Positions 33,171 through 41,817 of a stretch of 64,000 nt of DNA are shown here, one piece after another. The translations under genes were made by a program, and so were the position numbers. The notes beneath the pieces were generated by a model that was given only the letters and a program-made list of their open reading frames with translations, was not told the DNA's origin and did no database searches. Each line of letters opens with the position of its first letter. The stretch's first letter is position 1. The DNA lies in NCBI RefSeq assembly GCF_003254115.1, contig NZ_QKZV01000001.1:341585-405584 (forward strand), given 5' to 3'. This stretch comes from Hydrotalea sandarakina (GTDB lineage: Bacteria; Bacteroidota; Bacteroidia; Chitinophagales; Chitinophagaceae).

Positions 33171-33193
33171 AAAATGACATTTTTAATTCATTA

Positions 33194-33201
33194 CAAATTT
33201 A
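33194..33201 (-). promoter_or_regulatory. -7 promoter element of dps
   Basis: The reverse strand reads TAAATTTG, an exact TAnnTTTG match 23 nt before the dps ATG. Confidence 0.5.
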
Positions 33202-33306
33202 ATTTATTCAATTTGAAAAGCTTGTTATTAAACTGCTATAATTTTTAAATATTAGCTCATATTCATGCTTTAGTGTGATGAAAAAGAAAGCGAAAAAATT
33301 TTTTTA

Positions 33307-33333
33307 TTGATTATAAATATAGCCTTACATTTG
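33307..33333 (+). promoter_or_regulatory. Promoter of the his operon
   Basis: TTG at 33307-33309, a 16-nt spacer and TACATTTG at 33326-33333 (TAnnTTTG). Transcription would start near 33338, just before the leader-peptide ATG. The spacer is a little short against the usual 19 or so. Confidence 0.55.
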
Positions 33334-33349
33334 CGCAATAATTTTTAAA

Positions 33350-33400
33350 ATGAAATTGACACATTCACATATCCATCATCATTCAATGCCCTCGCGGTAA
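33350..33400 (+). CDS. hisL: Histidine operon leader peptide
   Basis: A 16-codon frame encoding MKLTHSHIHHHSMPSR, with five His codons among seven consecutive positions (residues 5-11). It lies directly after a -7 box and 90 bp before hisG. Its stop codon is inside the 5' arm of a predicted antiterminator, and an intrinsic terminator follows 36 bp later. This is the layout of a classical histidine attenuator: ribosome stalling at His codons when charged tRNA-His is scarce decides whether the his genes are read. The peptide itself has no other expected role. Confidence 0.88.
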   Translation: MKLTHSHIHHHSMPSR

Positions 33401-33461
33401 GCGATTGATGTTGCTATGTGTATCAACATAACATTAAAAGCTTACCTCGGTAGGCTTTTTT
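33392..33461 (+). promoter_or_regulatory. His attenuator: antiterminator and terminator alternatives
   Basis: Segment GGTAAGC (33396-33402, overlapping the leader stop codon) is complementary to GCTTACC (33440-33446); the pairing extends outward by three more pairs past one mismatch (33392-33394 with 33448-33450). GCTTACC is also the 5' arm of the terminator stem at 33436-33459. A 6-bp hairpin (ATGTTG 33408-33413 with CAACAT 33424-33429) lies between the antiterminator arms and would bring them together. A ribosome reaching the stop covers GGTAAGC and favours the terminator; one stalled at the His codons leaves it free. Confidence 0.85.
33436..33461 (+). terminator. Intrinsic terminator in the his leader
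   Basis: AAAAGCTTAC pairs with GTAGGCTTTT over a CTCG loop (10 pairs, one G-T wobble), followed by a T-run. It precedes hisG by 29 bp and forms the off state of the attenuator. Confidence 0.87.
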
Positions 33462-33490
33462 TATTTTATAACCATAACAAAAAAAGTAAA

Positions 33491-34354
33491 ATGCAAACTG
33501 AAAAGTTGAAATTGGCAATACAAAAGAGTGGTCGCCTGCATGATGATTCCATTAAACTTTTAAAAGAATGTGGTATTGATATTTCAAATGGTATAAACCA
33601 GTTAAAAACAGAGGCCAGTAATTTCCCATTAGAAGTGTTTTTTTTACGTGATGATGATATTCCGCAATATGTTGAAGATGCCGTAGCAGATATTGGTTTT
33701 GTGGGTGAAAATGTGGTGTATGAAAAAAATAAAAAATTAAAAGTAGTTGAACAGTTGGGCTTTGGAAAGTGTCGTCTTTCTATTGCAGTAAAAAAGGGAG
33801 AATCATATAATGGCCCTGAATACTTACAAGGTAAAAAAATTGCAACAAGTTATCCGGTAATACTGCAACAATATTTGCAACAAAAAAACATAAAAGCTGA
33901 AATACATGAAATTAGCGGTAGTGTTGAAATTGCACCCGGTATTGGTTTAGCCGATGCTATATGCGATTTGGTGAGTAGCGGTTCTACTTTGTTTATGAAT
34001 GGTTTAACTGAGGCAGAAGTAATATTGAAATCGCAAGCTGTTTTAATTCAACACCAACAATTGTCTGCAGAAAAACAACAATTACTGGAAAAGTTGGTTT
34101 TTCGTATTCAGGCGGTAAAAAAGGCGAAGAATAATAAATATGTGTTATTAAATGCGCCTAACGATAAACTTTCAGAAATAATAGCGCTGTTACCGGGTAT
34201 GAAAAGTCCTACAGTTCTACCTTTAGCACAACCGGGGTGGAGCAGTGTTCATAGCGTTCTAAGTGAAAATCAATTCTGGGAAATAATTGAGCAACTAAAA
34301 AATGCCGGTGCGCAGGGAATTTTAGTAGTACCTATTGAAAAAATGATTGTTTAA
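33491..34354 (+). CDS. hisG: ATP phosphoribosyltransferase HisG, long form
   Basis: A 287-residue enzyme for the first step of histidine synthesis, joining ATP and PRPP. KLKLAIQKSGRLHDDSIKLL begins the catalytic domains; the PRPP-binding loop is ISGSVEIAPGIGLADAICDLVSSGSTL (about residues 139-165). The C-terminal regulatory domain (about 205-287, with LPGMKSPTVLPLA and GAQGILVVPIEKMI) makes it the long type, which is feedback-inhibited by histidine and needs no HisZ. ATG at 33491 is chosen: the upstream in-frame extension from 33416 would run through the leader terminator. It is first in the his operon. Confidence 0.97.
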   Translation: MQTEKLKLAIQKSGRLHDDSIKLLKECGIDISNGINQLKTEASNFPLEVFFLRDDDIPQYVEDAVADIGFVGENVVYEKNKKLKVVEQLGFGKCRLSIAVKKGESYNGPEYLQGKKIATSYPVILQQYLQQKNIKAEIHEISGSVEIAPGIGLADAICDLVSSGSTLFMNGLTEAEVILKSQAVLIQHQQLSAEKQQLLEKLVFRIQAVKKAKNNKYVLLNAPNDKLSEIIALLPGMKSPTVLPLAQPGWSSVHSVLSENQFWEIIEQLKNAGAQGILVVPIEKMIV

Positions 34355-34365
34355 AAACTATTATC

Positions 34366-35649
34366 ATGCAAATTTTTAATAATCCATCTATCAACGATTG
34401 GCAGCAAATACTGCAAAGACCGGCCATTAATAACGATACCTTACAAAACACTGTTTTGCACATATTAAAAAGTGTACAAACTGAGGGTGATGAAGCAGTA
34501 AAGGCTTTTACAAAAAGCATTGACCACATTGAACTCAAGCAGTTACAAGTTGCACCGGAAGTAATTAAAAAGGCCGGCGAGAAAGTAGATGCAGCTTTAA
34601 AAAATGCCATTGATATCGCCATTCAAAATATTCGTCTTTTTCATCAAAAACAAGTGCAGGCTATTGAAAAAGTTGAAACAATGCCGGGAGTAGTATGTTG
34701 GCGAAAATCTGTACCAATAGAAAAAGTGGGTTTATATATTCCGGGCGGAACAGCACCATTATTTTCTACTTTAATTATGTTGGCAATACCTGCTAAAATT
34801 GCCGGATGTAAAGAACTGATTGTTTGTACTCCGCCACGTAAAGATGGAACCGTTAGTGAAGTTATTTTATACACTGCATCTGTTTTGGGCATTGAAAAAG
34901 TATTTGCTATTGGGGGAGTACAGGCTATTGCAGCAATGGCCTATGGTACAGCTTCCGTACCTCAGGTATATAAAATTTTCGGACCTGGAAATCAATATGT
35001 AACAGCTGCCAAACAATTCATTCAACAACAAGGGGTAGCCATTGATATGCCGGCAGGACCAAGCGAAGTTTGTGTATTGGCCGATGAAAGTGCAAATCCC
35101 GATTTTATCGCTGCAGACTTACTTTCACAAGCTGAACATGGCCCCGACAGCCAGGTTGTTTTAGTAACCAACCAAATGATAATAGCGGAAAAAGTAATAA
35201 AGGCTATTGAACAACAACTAAACAATTTACCACGGAAGGTAATTGCAGAAAAAGCCTTGCAAAACAGTAAGTTTATTATTATGGATGATTTAGAAGATGC
35301 TATTGCTTTAGTGAATACTTATGCCGCAGAACACTTAATTATTCAATGTGAACATGCTGAAGCAATTGCAGAAAAAATTACCAATGCCGGTTCTGTATTC
35401 TTAGGCAATTATTCACCTGAAAGTGTGGGTGATTATGCCAGCGGTACAAATCATACATTACCTACTAATGGCTTTGCTAAAGCATATAGTGGCGTTAGTG
35501 TGGATTCATTTGTGAAAAAAATTACTTTTCAACAACTTTCACAACAAGGCTTGCAACAAGTTGGCCCCGCTGTTATGCAAATGGCAATTGCCGAAGGATT
35601 AGAAGCACATAAAAATGCAGTTCAGATAAGATTAAATCAAACAATTTAA
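34366..35649 (+). CDS. hisD: Histidinol dehydrogenase
   Basis: A 427-residue zinc enzyme that oxidises histidinol to histidine in two NAD-dependent steps. Motifs include VPIEKVGLYIPGGTAPLFST, FGPGNQYVTAAKQF, IDMPAGPSEVCVLAD, LLSQAEHGPDSQVVLVT with zinc ligands, and AEHLIIQCEHAE. Length is typical. It begins 11 bp after hisG and ends 10 bp before hisC. Confidence 0.98.
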   Translation: MQIFNNPSINDWQQILQRPAINNDTLQNTVLHILKSVQTEGDEAVKAFTKSIDHIELKQLQVAPEVIKKAGEKVDAALKNAIDIAIQNIRLFHQKQVQAIEKVETMPGVVCWRKSVPIEKVGLYIPGGTAPLFSTLIMLAIPAKIAGCKELIVCTPPRKDGTVSEVILYTASVLGIEKVFAIGGVQAIAAMAYGTASVPQVYKIFGPGNQYVTAAKQFIQQQGVAIDMPAGPSEVCVLADESANPDFIAADLLSQAEHGPDSQVVLVTNQMIIAEKVIKAIEQQLNNLPRKVIAEKALQNSKFIIMDDLEDAIALVNTYAAEHLIIQCEHAEAIAEKITNAGSVFLGNYSPESVGDYASGTNHTLPTNGFAKAYSGVSVDSFVKKITFQQLSQQGLQQVGPAVMQMAIAEGLEAHKNAVQIRLNQTI

Positions 35650-35659
35650 ACAACTTAAT

Positions 35660-36709
35660 ATGTCATTTTCTCTTCAATCATTAATACGAAAAAATATTGC
35701 TGCATTAAAACCTTATTCGTCTGCAAGAGATGAGTTTAGTGGAGAAGCCTCCGTTTTTTTAGATGCGAATGAAAATAGTTTGGGTTCACCAACCATTAAA
35801 TGGTATAACCGTTATCCTGATCCTCATCAAAAAAAATTAAAAGCTGCCATTAGTGCTGTAAAAAACGTTCCGGCAGATCAAATTTTCTTAGGAAACGGCA
35901 GTGATGAATGTATTGATATATTATTCCGCACTTTTTGTGAACCCGGAGTTGATAATGTTATTGTTTGCCCACCAACTTATGGCATGTATGAAGTTTCAGC
36001 AGCTATTAATGATGTTGCCGTAAGAAAGGCCCCCTTGACACCCAATTTTCAACTTGATATTGTAGCAATTGAAAAATTAGTAGACAGCAATACAAAAATA
36101 ATTTGGCTTTGCTCACCTAATAATCCTTCGGGCAATTCTTTAAATAGAACCGATATAGAAACAGTTTTAAATAATTTTAATGGCATTGTAGTAATTGATG
36201 AGGCATACATAAATTTTTCTCGTCAAAAATCATTTATTCAAGAATTAGCTGAATATCCCAACTTGGTAATACTTCAAACATTCAGTAAAGCTTGGGGACT
36301 TGCCGGTTTGCGTTTGGGAATGGCATTTGCACAGCAGCCCATTATTGCAATAATGGATAAGGTAAAACCACCTTATAACATTAATCAACTTACACAAGAA
36401 ATAGTAACAGATGCATTACAAGAGGTAGGCATGGTTAATGATATGATTAAAGAAATTGTGGCCATGCGTGAGGCTTTAGCTAAAGTTTTTATGCAAATAC
36501 CTGTGGTTGAAAAAGTGTATCCATCTGATGCGAACTTTTTATTAGTGAAAGTAAAAAATGCACAATCGGTTTATAATTATTTATTAACAAAAGGCATTGT
36601 GGTACGTGATAGGAGTAATGTTATACTTTGTAATGAATGTTTACGTATTACCATTGGCACGGAACAGGAAAATACATTGTTGGTTGATGCCCTGGCCGCA
36701 ATTGAGTAA
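35660..36709 (+). CDS. hisC: Histidinol-phosphate aminotransferase
   Basis: A 349-residue PLP-dependent fold-type I aminotransferase. It shows LDANENSLGSP, the IFLGNGSDECIDILFRTF cofactor-binding turn, WLCSPNNPSGN, VVIDEAYINFS with the PLP-interacting Asp, and the Schiff-base Lys in TFSKAWGLAGLRLG. It converts imidazole-acetol phosphate to histidinol phosphate. It lies 10 bp after hisD; a 116-bp gap then separates it from the dehydrogenase gene placed inside the operon. Confidence 0.97.
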   Translation: MSFSLQSLIRKNIAALKPYSSARDEFSGEASVFLDANENSLGSPTIKWYNRYPDPHQKKLKAAISAVKNVPADQIFLGNGSDECIDILFRTFCEPGVDNVIVCPPTYGMYEVSAAINDVAVRKAPLTPNFQLDIVAIEKLVDSNTKIIWLCSPNNPSGNSLNRTDIETVLNNFNGIVVIDEAYINFSRQKSFIQELAEYPNLVILQTFSKAWGLAGLRLGMAFAQQPIIAIMDKVKPPYNINQLTQEIVTDALQEVGMVNDMIKEIVAMREALAKVFMQIPVVEKVYPSDANFLLVKVKNAQSVYNYLLTKGIVVRDRSNVILCNECLRITIGTEQENTLLVDALAAIE

Positions 36710-36825: not shown

Positions 36826-38124
36826 ATGAAAAAGAAATTGATTGTTTTTATTTCGGTATTGTGCCTTTATCAAATGGCCAATGCCAATACAATTCATTCT
36901 ACTGATTCTGTTATTGTTCGTTCCGGTTCAATACAGCCCGATGCGGATAATGCCGGTTTAATTTTGCCTAAAGGTTTTGGTGCTTTAATTGTTACCAGTG
37001 CTTATGGTAAACCAAGGCATATTGCGGTTACACCTGAAGGATATTTATACGTTAAATTAGCGCAACCATTTAATGGGAATGGCATTTATTTATTAAAAGA
37101 TAAAAATGGTGACGGTAAAATAGATGATGCTATTGGTTTTGGTAATTATGGCGGTACCGGCATTGCTTTAAAAGATGGATACTTATATGCTTCATCCGAT
37201 GAAAATGTATATCGTTATAAGTTGAATAATCAACATGAAGTAACCAACCCGAACGATCCTGATGAAATTATTCATGGATTATTGAATAGGCGGGAACATG
37301 AATCAAAATCAATTACATTAGACAACAACGGGAATATATATGTAAACATAGGTGCTTATTCCAATGCATGCCAGGTACAAGATAGGGTACCGGGAAGTCC
37401 GGGTATGAAACCATGTCCAATATTAGATTCTGCCGGAGGTATTTGGCAATTTAAAGCCAATCAAATGCATCAAACTTATGGTGATGGAGTTCGTTATGCT
37501 ACCGGTTTGAGAAATGTTGTAGGTTTAGATTGGAACACACAAACCAATTCATTATTTGTAATGCAACATGGACGCGATCAGTTACACGATAATTGGCCTA
37601 AATTATTTACTGTTCAGCAAAGTGCAGAATTGCCAGCTGAATGTATGTATGAAATTCATAAAGGTGATAATGCCGGTTGGCCATATATTTATTACGATCA
37701 AATTCAACACAAGAAAATATTGGCACCGGAATATGGTGGTGATGGAAAGAAAACTGCCGGTGAAGATGCTATCAATCCCATTATGGCATTTCCGGGTCAT
37801 TTGGCTCCTGATGGTTTATTATTTTACACCGGAAATATGTTTCCGGAAAAATATAAACATGGTGCATTTATTGCCTTTCATGGAAGTTGGAATCGTGCTC
37901 CCTTACCTCAAGAAGGTTACTACGTAGTATTTGTTCCTTTTAAAGATGGAAAACCTACCGGCGAATGGGAAGTTTTTGCCAATGGTTTTGCCGGAAAACC
38001 ACCCATTACATCAGCCAGAAATGCACACCGTCCCTGTGGTTTGGCACAAGGCCCGGATGGCTCATTATATGTAACTGATGATAACAAAGGGGCTATTTAC
38101 AGAATTATTTATACAGGAAAATAA
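36826..38124 (+). CDS. Secreted PQQ-type sugar (sorbosone-like) dehydrogenase
   Basis: A 432-residue protein with a signal peptide (about 1-20, ending ANA) and a six-bladed beta-propeller of the glucose/sorbosone dehydrogenase type. Blade motifs include GKPRHIAVTPEGYLYVKL, IYLLKDKNGDGKIDDAIG (a Ca-binding-like DxNxDG loop), YATGLRNVVGLDWN and FHGSWNRAPLPQEGYYVV. Family members are usually PQQ-dependent periplasmic oxidoreductases. It is followed by a c-type cytochrome gene, a plausible electron acceptor. Unusually, both lie between hisC and hisB. PQQ synthesis genes are not visible here, so cofactor and substrate are uncertain. Confidence 0.85.
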   Translation: MKKKLIVFISVLCLYQMANANTIHSTDSVIVRSGSIQPDADNAGLILPKGFGALIVTSAYGKPRHIAVTPEGYLYVKLAQPFNGNGIYLLKDKNGDGKIDDAIGFGNYGGTGIALKDGYLYASSDENVYRYKLNNQHEVTNPNDPDEIIHGLLNRREHESKSITLDNNGNIYVNIGAYSNACQVQDRVPGSPGMKPCPILDSAGGIWQFKANQMHQTYGDGVRYATGLRNVVGLDWNTQTNSLFVMQHGRDQLHDNWPKLFTVQQSAELPAECMYEIHKGDNAGWPYIYYDQIQHKKILAPEYGGDGKKTAGEDAINPIMAFPGHLAPDGLLFYTGNMFPEKYKHGAFIAFHGSWNRAPLPQEGYYVVFVPFKDGKPTGEWEVFANGFAGKPPITSARNAHRPCGLAQGPDGSLYVTDDNKGAIYRIIYTGK

Positions 38125-38166
38125 TTGTCCTTCCATAAAAACTTATTTAACTCGAATATACTCAGT

Positions 38167-38589
38167 ATGATAAAGTATCTTTTTTTTGTTATGGCTATTG
38201 CAATTGTAGCAGTAGCCATAACTGCTTTCACTCCCGCTCAAATTAATGATGTAAAAGCATCCGTTAAAAGAGGAGAAAAAGTTTATACAAAAGTTTGTTT
38301 GCCTTGCCACATGGCCGACGGTGGTGGTGTACCCAATATGAATCCACCCTTAATTCAAACTTCATACGTTTTAGGTGATAAAACAAAATTAATTGGTATT
38401 GTTTTGCACGGAATGAATGAACGGGTACCAATTGACGGTGATTATTATTCAAATAATATGGCACCACACAATGATTTAACCGATCAGCAAATTGCGGATG
38501 TATTAACCTATGTTAGAAACAGTTTTGGCAACAAAGCCAGTGCCGTTACCCCAACTGAAGTAAAGCAAGCTCGTTTAAAAAAACAATAA
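38167..38589 (+). CDS. Mono-haem c-type cytochrome
   Basis: A 140-residue membrane-anchored or secreted cytochrome c. The N-terminal hydrophobic segment (MIKYLFFVMAIAIVAVAI) is followed by the haem motif CLPCH (about residues 47-51), GGGVPNMNPPL and the probable axial Met in NNMAPH, with the C-terminal helix TDQQIADVLTYVRNSFG. The ATG at 38167 is used; a TTG at 38125 directly after the previous stop is less likely. It probably takes electrons from the upstream dehydrogenase. hisB starts 21 bp later, so it likely shares a transcript with histidine genes. Confidence 0.9.
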   Translation: MIKYLFFVMAIAIVAVAITAFTPAQINDVKASVKRGEKVYTKVCLPCHMADGGGVPNMNPPLIQTSYVLGDKTKLIGIVLHGMNERVPIDGDYYSNNMAPHNDLTDQQIADVLTYVRNSFGNKASAVTPTEVKQARLKKQ

Positions 38590-38610: not shown

Positions 38611-39750
38611 ATGAAAAAAGTTTTATTCATCGATAGAGACGGAACCATCATTAATGAAGTACCACCTACTTATCAAATAGACAGTTTTGAGAAATTACAA
38701 TTCTATCCGCAGGTTTTTAGATACTTGGGATTAATTGCTGCAGAATTAGATTATGAATTAGTAATGGTTACCAATCAAGATGGATTAGGTACAAGTTCAT
38801 TTCCTGAAGAAACTTTTTGGCCGGTACAAAATTTTATCATGGATTGCTTAAAGCAAGAAGGAATTGTTTTTAATGAAGTGTGTATAGATAAAAGTTTTCC
38901 TGAACAACATTTGCCAACACGTAAGCCCGGTACCGGCATGCTTCAAAAATACATGAATAATGAAGTATATGACATGGCTAATTCTTTCGTAATTGGCGAT
39001 AGAATTACCGATGTACAACTTGCAAAAAATTTAGGCTGCAAAGCAATTTGGCTTAACAGTGATGAATCACTTGGAAGTGCAGAAATATCCGATGAAATGA
39101 ATGTTTTAATCCCAACAATAGCTTTAAAAACTTTAGAATGGCGTGATATTTATAGTTTTTTAAAACTTTCTAACCGTAGCGTAAAACATATTCGTAAAAC
39201 CAATGAAACGAATATTGAAATTGAGTTAAATGTTGATGGTAGTGGCGTTGCTCATATTCACACCGGTTTAGGTTTTTTTGACCATATGTTGGAACAAATT
39301 GCCCGGCATGGTAAAATGGACATAAGTATTTCCACAAAAGGTGATTTACATATTGATGAACACCACACCATTGAAGACACAGGCATAGCATTGGGTGAAG
39401 CATTTGCCCTAGCATTGCATGATAAAAGGGGTATGGAACGTTATGGTTTTGCCTTGCCCATGGATGAAGCAGAAGCAAAGGTGCTGATTGATTTTGGCGG
39501 AAGAAGTTGGCTGGTTTGGGATGCTGAATTTAAAAGAGAAAAAATTGGTGATATGCCCACAGAAATGTTCTTTCATTTCTTCAAATCCTTTTCCGATGCT
39601 GCTAAATGCAACTTAAACATAGCTTGTAAAGGCACTAACGAACACCACAAAATTGAAGCTATTTTCAAGGCATTTGCAAAAGCAATGAAAATGGCTGTTA
39701 AGCGTGATCCCTTCAATAATTATTTGCCGAGTACCAAAGGTGTTTTATAA
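38611..39750 (+). CDS. hisB: Bifunctional histidinol-phosphatase / imidazoleglycerol-phosphate dehydratase
   Basis: A 379-residue fusion. The N-terminal HAD phosphatase (about 1-165) has FIDRDGTII with Asp8 and Asp10, [10 protein letters not shown] and [19 protein letters not shown]. The C-terminal dehydratase (about 185-379) has [30 protein letters not shown] and [17 protein letters not shown], the paired His motifs that bind manganese. It covers two steps of histidine synthesis. It is split from hisGDC by the dehydrogenase/cytochrome pair. hisH, hisA, hisF and hisI are not in the window. Confidence 0.98.
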
Positions 39751-41094: not shown

Positions 41095-41817
41095 TTAGTT
41101 TTTGTGCATGGCGTAAAGAATGCCACCTAACAAGTGTCCTAAAAATAATGGATCACTATATGATGCGTCTGTATGACCTAATGCTGTGTAAAAAACTCTA
41201 CCACCTTCAAATGAATGATACCAACTCATGGGATGATAATCACCGTTTTCACCACCATGGTATGATTTTTCATCAATAGTTAGTAATACATGAACACTGT
41301 CCCAATGTGTATTTTTAAAATTGTACCATTCATCCCAACGCGTCCAAGTTTCAGGTAAATTTTTGGTAGCAATAAAATGTTTATCAACTACATGCAGATT
41401 GGCATTCTGTTGTTCCGGATGGCTTTTAAAATAAGCACCAATCATTCGGTTATACCATGGCCAATCATATTCTGTATCCGTAGCAGCATGTATGCCCACA
41501 AATCCCCCTCCGTTGTGTATATATTTCTCAAATGCTGCTTTTTGTGCATCATTTAAAATTGTTCCGGTGGTACTTAAAAAAATAACTGCTTTGTACTGCT
41601 TTAAATTTGCATCGGTAAAAATATTGCTGTTAGTAGAAGTATCCACCATAAAATGGTTTTCTTTCCCAAGCTTTTCAATTGCTTTTATACCGGCAGCAAT
41701 TGATTCGTGGTGGTAACCGGCAGTTTTGCTGAATACTAAAACCTTATCTTCTTTTTTGTTAAATGAAACTAATAATACCACTAACAAAATTGAAGCAGCT
41801 GTTGATAATATTTTCAT
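41095..41817 (-). CDS. Secreted ThuA-like domain protein
   Basis: A 240-residue protein with a signal peptide (about 1-19) and a ThuA-type class I glutamine amidotransferase-like fold. Seen are VLVFSKTAGYHHESI, YKAVIFLSTTGTILND, YIHNGGGFVGIHAATDTEYDW and the C-terminal GGRVFYTALGHTDASYSDP. In Bacteroidota these proteins accompany carbohydrate catabolism, but their reaction is unsettled. The nucleophilic Cys of true amidotransferases is absent in the GIHAA turn. It stands alone between nhaA and the Dabb gene. Confidence 0.88.
   Translation of the reverse strand: MKILSTAASILLVVLLVSFNKKEDKVLVFSKTAGYHHESIAAGIKAIEKLGKENHFMVDTSTNSNIFTDANLKQYKAVIFLSTTGTILNDAQKAAFEKYIHNGGGFVGIHAATDTEYDWPWYNRMIGAYFKSHPEQQNANLHVVDKHFIATKNLPETWTRWDEWYNFKNTHWDSVHVLLTIDEKSYHGGENGDYHPMSWYHSFEGGRVFYTALGHTDASYSDPLFLGHLLGGILYAMHKN

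Follow-up and report, generated by a model that had tools for sequence, protein, structure and literature searches.

Does the region in front of hisG in Hydrotalea sandarakina contain a histidine attenuator, and, if so, how would it choose between termination and read-through? In the gammaproteobacterial hisL element, a leader peptide with a run of His codons precedes alternative hairpins and a terminator, and the choice between them is mediated by the ribosome. A first reading made from the letters only (the sequence-only reading) had proposed such an attenuator, in a simplified two-state form, in the stretch of 64,000 nucleotides analysed here (the window). Based on the comparisons described below, we are highly confident that the element is a classical transcription attenuator, mediated by the ribosome and serving hisG and the his genes downstream.

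Organization of the hisG leader region

Every part listed in the sequence-only reading was located. The −7 box, the 16-codon leader with five His codons and the GGTAAGC motif lying over its stop codon were found at 33326–33402, and the GCTTACC motif, shared by two competing pairings, and the T-tailed terminator before hisG were found at 33440–33463 (Table 1). The small hairpin described between the antiterminator arms is also present, but it is not a separate structure and forms the tip of the antiterminator itself. The region includes the parts by which an attenuator is recognized, namely an amino-acid-rich leader ORF, an intrinsic terminator and a mutually exclusive antiterminator sharing the 5′ arm of that terminator.

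Table 1. Features of the hisG leader region and the adjacent his genes in the window
Feature	Position	Strand	Remarks
−7 promoter box TACATTTG	33326–33333	+	exact TAnnTTTG
Leader peptide MKLTHSHIHHHSMPSR	33350–33400	+	16 codons, five CAT His codons; ATG 33350, TAA 33398–33400
1:2 hairpin	33366–33420	+	−15.6 kcal/mol; pairing support on 51 sequences; stems 33366–33371/33415–33420, 33377–33381/33406–33410 and UGCC 33387–33390/GGUA 33396–33399
GGTAAGC (segment 2)	33396–33402	+	overlaps leader stop codon
2:3 antiterminator	33396–33446	+	GGUAAGC 33396–33402 with GCUUACC 33440–33446; apical stems 33405–33411 and 33415–33419 paired with 33426–33437
3:4 terminator	33436–33463	+	AAAAGCUUAC CUCG GUAGGCUUUU and U tail
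GCTTACC (segment 3)	33440–33446	+	
GGTAGGC, terminator 3′ arm, then T tail	33449–33455	+	
hisG, first regulated gene (proposed)	33491–34354	+	TIGR00070 193.9 bits, cut-off 75.75; TIGR03455 C-terminal domain
hisD and hisC	34366–36709	+	TIGR00069 and TIGR01141 above cut-offs
hisB, bifunctional	38611–39750	+	NF003937 above cut-off; two genes of other function intervene

Chance is an unlikely source of these parts. Both strands of the window were searched for ATG-started ORFs of 8–30 codons that are His-dense (at least four His in seven codons). There are two, the leader with five His and an ORF at 41211–41279 with four; 20 Markov shuffles of the window (both strands) gave four such ORFs altogether. 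One terminator-like site (33436–33459) was detected in 33171–33600, with 0.2 expected. For the 58-nt antiterminator region, the folding energy was −23.1 kcal/mol (z −5.7), a value that none of 200 shuffles matched.

The genome of H. sandarakina comprises 3.27 Mb in 30 contigs, and its HisG is 89% identical to that of Hydrotalea flava, the nearest named record. A hisG start at 33416, taken from a mechanical ORF list, was rejected because the alignments with relatives begin at 33491 or only a few residues away. The two genes between hisC and hisB (36826–38589) encode a protein of heme-binding type (TIGR02604, sub-threshold) and one resembling cytochrome c (sub-threshold matches). The genes hisH, hisA and hisF lie about 160 kb from hisG, downstream of trpB/trpA and in the same direction (L216:7–4480, i.e., C1:211506–215979); hisF was assigned by TIGR00735, and hisH, hisA and trpB/trpA were named by eye. 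No His-run ORF was found in this 6-kb hisH/hisA/hisF stretch. In the relatives G005, G009, G011, G017 and G018, trpE is located approximately 4.7–6.6 kb downstream of hisG.

Leader and terminator in related genomes

The gene hisG was found in 22 of 39 relative genomes, that of H. sandarakina included, and further hisG loci were taken from a collection of named genomes (the best 80 of 218). This gave 103 loci in total, with our own genome counted twice and some genomes present in both collections. Under a lax definition (an ATG ORF of up to 40 codons with at least three His within 450 nt before hisG), a His-bearing short ORF precedes hisG at 101 of the 103 loci, which include the best 80 of 218. 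A stricter leader pattern lost four loci (L003, L009, L023 and L094), and the removal of seven duplicates left 92 distinct leaders. L003 and L094 have weak leaders, and reading of L023 revealed five consecutive CAT codons in an ORF without an ATG start. A T-tailed hairpin lies downstream of 91 of the 92 distinct leaders (from loci including the best 80 of 218); at the exception, L040, the hairpin is there with too few T.

A retained hisG with neither His codons nor compensatory changes, named in the sequence-only reading as the finding that would speak against it, was not seen family-wide at the DNA level, and single exceptions such as L009 occur. The L009 locus (family genome G020) keeps hisG, but the 450 nt before the gene contain no His run.

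Conservation and covariation of the three pairings

Alignment A1, on which covariation in relatives was assessed, comprises 51 of 54 non-redundant sequences; the window is among them, as the entry for L001, and L002, L012 and L017, whose hairpins are written in other letters, are left out. Both pairings put forward in the sequence-only reading, 2:3 and 3:4, were conserved, and compensatory changes were found in them. In the 3:4 terminator, 97.0% of cells were paired and 8 of 11 pairs had changed on both sides; 38 cells had changed on both sides versus 12.6 in shuffles, a count that none of 500 shuffles reached. The main helix of 2:3 was paired in 98.2% of cells and the apical helix in 75.9%, and 7 of 13 pairs over both helices had changed on both sides, a count that none of 500 shuffles reached. 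In line with the sequence-only reading, the parts of a ribosome-mediated His attenuator are thus present, are conserved in relatives and show compensatory changes.

That reading had seen no 1:2 hairpin and had described a simplified device. However, the hairpin is present (33366–33420); in it, the His codons and those after them pair with GGTARGC and the letters 3′ of it, with 78.5% of its cells paired and a covariation score of 0.252 versus 0.206 in shuffles (A1, 51 sequences). It stood above all 500 shuffles in paired cells, pair types and covariation score; its count of both-side-changed pairs was not unusual and was reached by 69 of the 500. When 1:2 was compared with six slid versions, five had more both-side-changed pairs, one had more both-side-changed cells (35 vs 33) and one equalled it in pair types. 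Across the family, the 1:2 region surpassed its dinucleotide shuffles in stability (mean z −2.89; z below −1 in 89 of 91); its advantage over synonymous recodings was less striking (mean z −0.93; z below 0 in 77 of 91).

Segments were also swapped between species, in 87 of the 91 sequences (L002, L008, L012 and L017 lack the GGTARGC pattern). The average loss was about 1.6 kcal/mol for 2:3 and about 0.35 kcal/mol for 1:2. The native 2:3 value was reached by 0 of 20,000 permutations (29 of 20,000 in a 20-sequence subset); for 1:2, where the weakening was slight, the corresponding counts were 424 and, in the 20-sequence subset, 869 of 20,000.

Since the 1:2 hairpin exists and is supported on 51 sequences, we assign the element to the classical 1:2/2:3/3:4 layout. 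Competition of 1:2 with 2:3 was found for the family and is present in the window, where the evidence taken alone is weak; the window 1:2 hairpin showed no gain in stability over synonymous recodings (z 0.02).

Spacing and the leader stop codon

Of 91 leaders, 88 contain GTARGY (three do not), and in 70 of these 88 the motif lies 14 nt past the His run (sd 1.4 nt), with GGTARGC starting at 13. The leader stop was at the usual place in 78 of the 88, earlier in 4 and 8–17 nt past the element start in 6, and its position was more variable than this spacing (sd 3.5 nt). The overlap with the stop codon, on which the choice had been said to hinge, was therefore rejected as the determinant. The constant spacing fits a ribosome that would stall at the last His codon with segment 2 just free.

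These data bear on the simplified two-state attenuator, in which there is no working 1:2 hairpin and the choice consists in the ribosome covering the stop codon. Although GGTARGC is overlapped by the stop at its usual place and, in the window, 2:3 beats 1:2 at equilibrium without a ribosome and 1:2 is not above its synonymous recodings, we consider this reading improbable, given the pairing support for 1:2 on 51 sequences, its stability relative to dinucleotide shuffles in the family and a stop that drifts more than the His-to-GGTARGC spacing.

Folding with a masked ribosome

In the window, folding of the full transcript favored antitermination with the ribosome at every His codon (0.58–1.00) and termination once it was beyond them. 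Full-transcript equilibrium folding left the states unseparated in most relatives, where the terminator usually wins: with the full terminator, termination was favored despite a stalled ribosome in 73 of 91 sequences when it sat on the first His codon and in 79 of 91 when it sat on the last. Folds of transcripts ending before segment 4, with the ribosome masking 14 nt downstream, were used too. In these, 2:3 was above 0.5 in 90 of 91 sequences with the ribosome at the last His codon, in 88 of 91 at the first and in 0 of 91 at the stop. When no ribosome was present, 2:3 was above 0.5 in 32 of 91 and 1:2 in 53 of 91.

Because the terminator wins at equilibrium in most relatives, timing matters, and the model requires the antiterminator to form first. 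The untranslated leader of the window favors 2:3 at equilibrium, so default termination is uncertain for H. sandarakina.

Proposed mechanism of attenuation

From this anatomy, we infer ribosome stalling, premature termination and regulation by histidine. A shortage of charged His-tRNA would stall the leading ribosome on the His codons, where it would cover segment 1 and leave GGUAAGC (segment 2) free to pair with GCUUACC (segment 3). The 2:3 pairing would then block the terminator, and hisG would be transcribed. When histidine is plentiful, the ribosome would reach the stop and cover segment 2, after which the 3:4 terminator would form. If the leader is not translated, 1:2 could form first, and 3:4 would be left to terminate. 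Judging from the sequences and folding models, histidine shortage very probably turns the his genes on through the leader and its switchable hairpin.

Classical attenuation requires a ribosome close behind the RNA polymerase. A conserved attenuator in a phylum without Shine–Dalgarno sites implies transcription–translation coupling there, and the attenuator offers a simple reporter for testing such coupling. It also provides annotators with a definable RNA family, Rfam having none above its cut-off there.

Distribution in the family and the phylum

In the window's family, 76 of 97 genomes had a match to the covariance model R1, with downstream genes checked for part of the matches; at least one match, in G054, a genome without hisG, is an ordinary terminator. 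Within the phylum, R1 matched 29 of 296 genomes, and 23 of these 29 matches lie before hisG; the other six comprise the L130 match, located before trpE, and five ordinary terminators, in L116, L124, L126, L129 and L131. The element tracks its gene: among the family genomes scanned for both, 14 of 17 with hisG match R1, and R1 is absent from all four without hisG (G008, G013, G014 and G023). The three hisG-bearing genomes that R1 misses are G004, G017 and G020.

Direct reading of hisG upstream regions revealed a His-run leader in 74 of 91 genomes, against 0 of 91 on the reverse strand. It should be noted that 23 of the 91 genomes had been picked by means of R1 and are thus positive by selection; the remaining 68 comprise the best-scoring hisG matches and about one per further genus among the matches listed, and 51 of these 68 were positive. 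Some positives rest on doubtful ORFs (families f24, f25 and f44), and L147 was counted as negative, yet has a long His-rich ORF. Negative genomes belong to f28, f29, f30, f32, f33, f34, f40, f43 and f50; f44 (one of three positive) and f36 (three of four) are mixed.

A terminator was found automatically after 50 of the 74 leaders, a figure that is not exact because the finder (loop limit 9) misses some terminators. Those missed include L118 and L203, with ACCCGTC..GACGGGT hairpins and 10-nt loops before T runs. In f18, three of four leaders gave no terminator, although an A/T-rich hairpin followed by a T run can be seen at L167. The 2:3 complementarity had p < 0.05 in 26 of the 50, so that the evidence for an antiterminator covers only part of the families.

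In f38, His-rich leaders precede hisG in all 15 genomes read (L133–L137, L143, L151–L154, L156, L163, L174, L176 and L196), with about ten His in some. In none of these 15 genomes was an intrinsic terminator recognized after the leader. By eye, a pyrimidine-rich, G-poor stretch follows the leader, and a strong hairpin that lacks a T run is present in L152 and L156; Rho-dependent or translational attenuation is possible in this family. It is conceivable, though less likely than not, that the His-codon leader before hisG is an old trait of Bacteroidota, retained while the hairpin letters, the place of the stop and the mode of termination changed (intrinsic terminators in many families, in f38 maybe Rho), with most leaders in Chitinophagaceae being translated from near-leaderless mRNA.

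The same comparisons weigh on two further explanations. Within the window's family, the letters GGTARGC and GCTTACC are conserved, which would suit a hairpin region bound by a protein or a metabolite, the His codons being incidental. We regard this as very improbable, since His runs recur with different hairpin sequences in other families of the phylum, the peptide may end in G, R, W, L or P while the RNA element stays constant and no Rfam family is above its cut-off in the window (the best sub-threshold match in the region is Phe_leader, 22.9 bits). A translated microprotein with its own function, e.g., metal binding by His, has a negligible probability, for in spite of the recurrent peptide pattern MK...H.HHHHFLP.G, the C-terminal residues and the stop position vary around the steady RNA element, and R1 gives mostly one match per genome, typically before hisG.

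Divergent leaders show the same attenuator logic in other letters: GGTGAGCC with GGTTCGCC at L074 and TCAAAC with GTTTGA at L012. The L074 record is titled Beijerinckiaceae; its hisG is 77% identical to that of the window, its leader letters are compensated, and it is probably mislabelled or a mixed bin.

Promoter and transcription start

Of 91 leaders, 76 have the box TAnnTTTG in the 60 nt before them, with 4.4 expected from shuffles. By the published spacing, the first T of the −7 box stands at −12 (PMC6847099 and PMC9723704, available portions). Transcription in the window is thereby predicted to start near 33338, with a 5′ UTR of about 12 nt, and 5′ UTRs of 0–9 nt are predicted for 64 of the 76 leaders; these lengths rest on leader start codons chosen by rule. 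According to the available portions of the same sources, 5.5% of transcripts are leaderless in F. psychrophilum (PMC9723704), 87% have a 5′ UTR longer than 10 nt in F. johnsoniae (PMC6847099) and most transcripts are leadered in both Flavobacterium species. Shine–Dalgarno sites are described there as absent from mRNAs of Bacteroidota (PMC6847099).

Relation to known leader RNAs

The kind of element is already known, and its version in Bacteroidota is hardly described. Like His_leader (RF00514), it combines a His-run leader peptide before hisG, alternative hairpins, a terminator and ribosome-mediated logic. However, the Hydrotalea leader has no recognizable sequence relation to RF00514, and its mRNA is predicted to begin near the start codon. 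RF00514 was absent among the window matches at E up to 10 and exceeded its cut-off in none of the 39 relatives. Sub-threshold matches occurred in 26 of the 39, none at the window's leader, and one (31.8 bits) lies just before hisG in G036, a genome outside the family. On 14 control genomes, RF00514 matched seven, E. coli included, with one match above the cut-off.

The attenuation logic of hisL is restated in the portion consulted of PMC9413887, which reports attenuators in Proteobacteria and some Firmicutes and in which the word Bacteroidetes is absent. In PMC8305728, on his genes of Bacteroidota, the accessible text mentions attenuation for S. enterica and E. coli only. Leader-peptide-like sORFs of B. 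thetaiotaomicron are reported in PMC7366714, whose accessible text does not mention histidine. The closest parallel comes from F. psychrophilum, where hisG is preceded by a structured 5′ element that is found also in other genera of Flavobacteriaceae, and leader-peptide attenuation is suspected there for amino-acid operons (PMC9723704, in part). This element shares phylum and gene with that of Hydrotalea; the accessible text gives no architecture for it. Among the matches listed, as far as their available portions go, it was the only candidate for a His attenuator of Bacteroidetes in the open literature.

Bacteroid-trp (RF01692; PMC2864571, in part) is likewise a leader RNA for amino-acid genes in Bacteroidota but carries Trp codons and precedes trp genes; it had no match in the window. 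The R1 match at L130 is a WWW leader before trpE (gene named by eye), which RF01692 scores at 43.1 bits (cut-off 49). In the H. sandarakina genome, a Trp leader, MNNIWWWHTNLYRGW, and a terminator-like hairpin lie before trpE (L217:6183–6230), a gene likewise named by eye. Of 19 trpE-like loci of relatives (L218–L236, our own included), 17 have WWW leaders, 15 with WWWH and 2 with WWWQ. At several loci, the CAN codon after TGG can pair, by eye, with ATGCCA-like letters past the stop, and the His after WWW in Trp leaders may reflect a constraint on the RNA.
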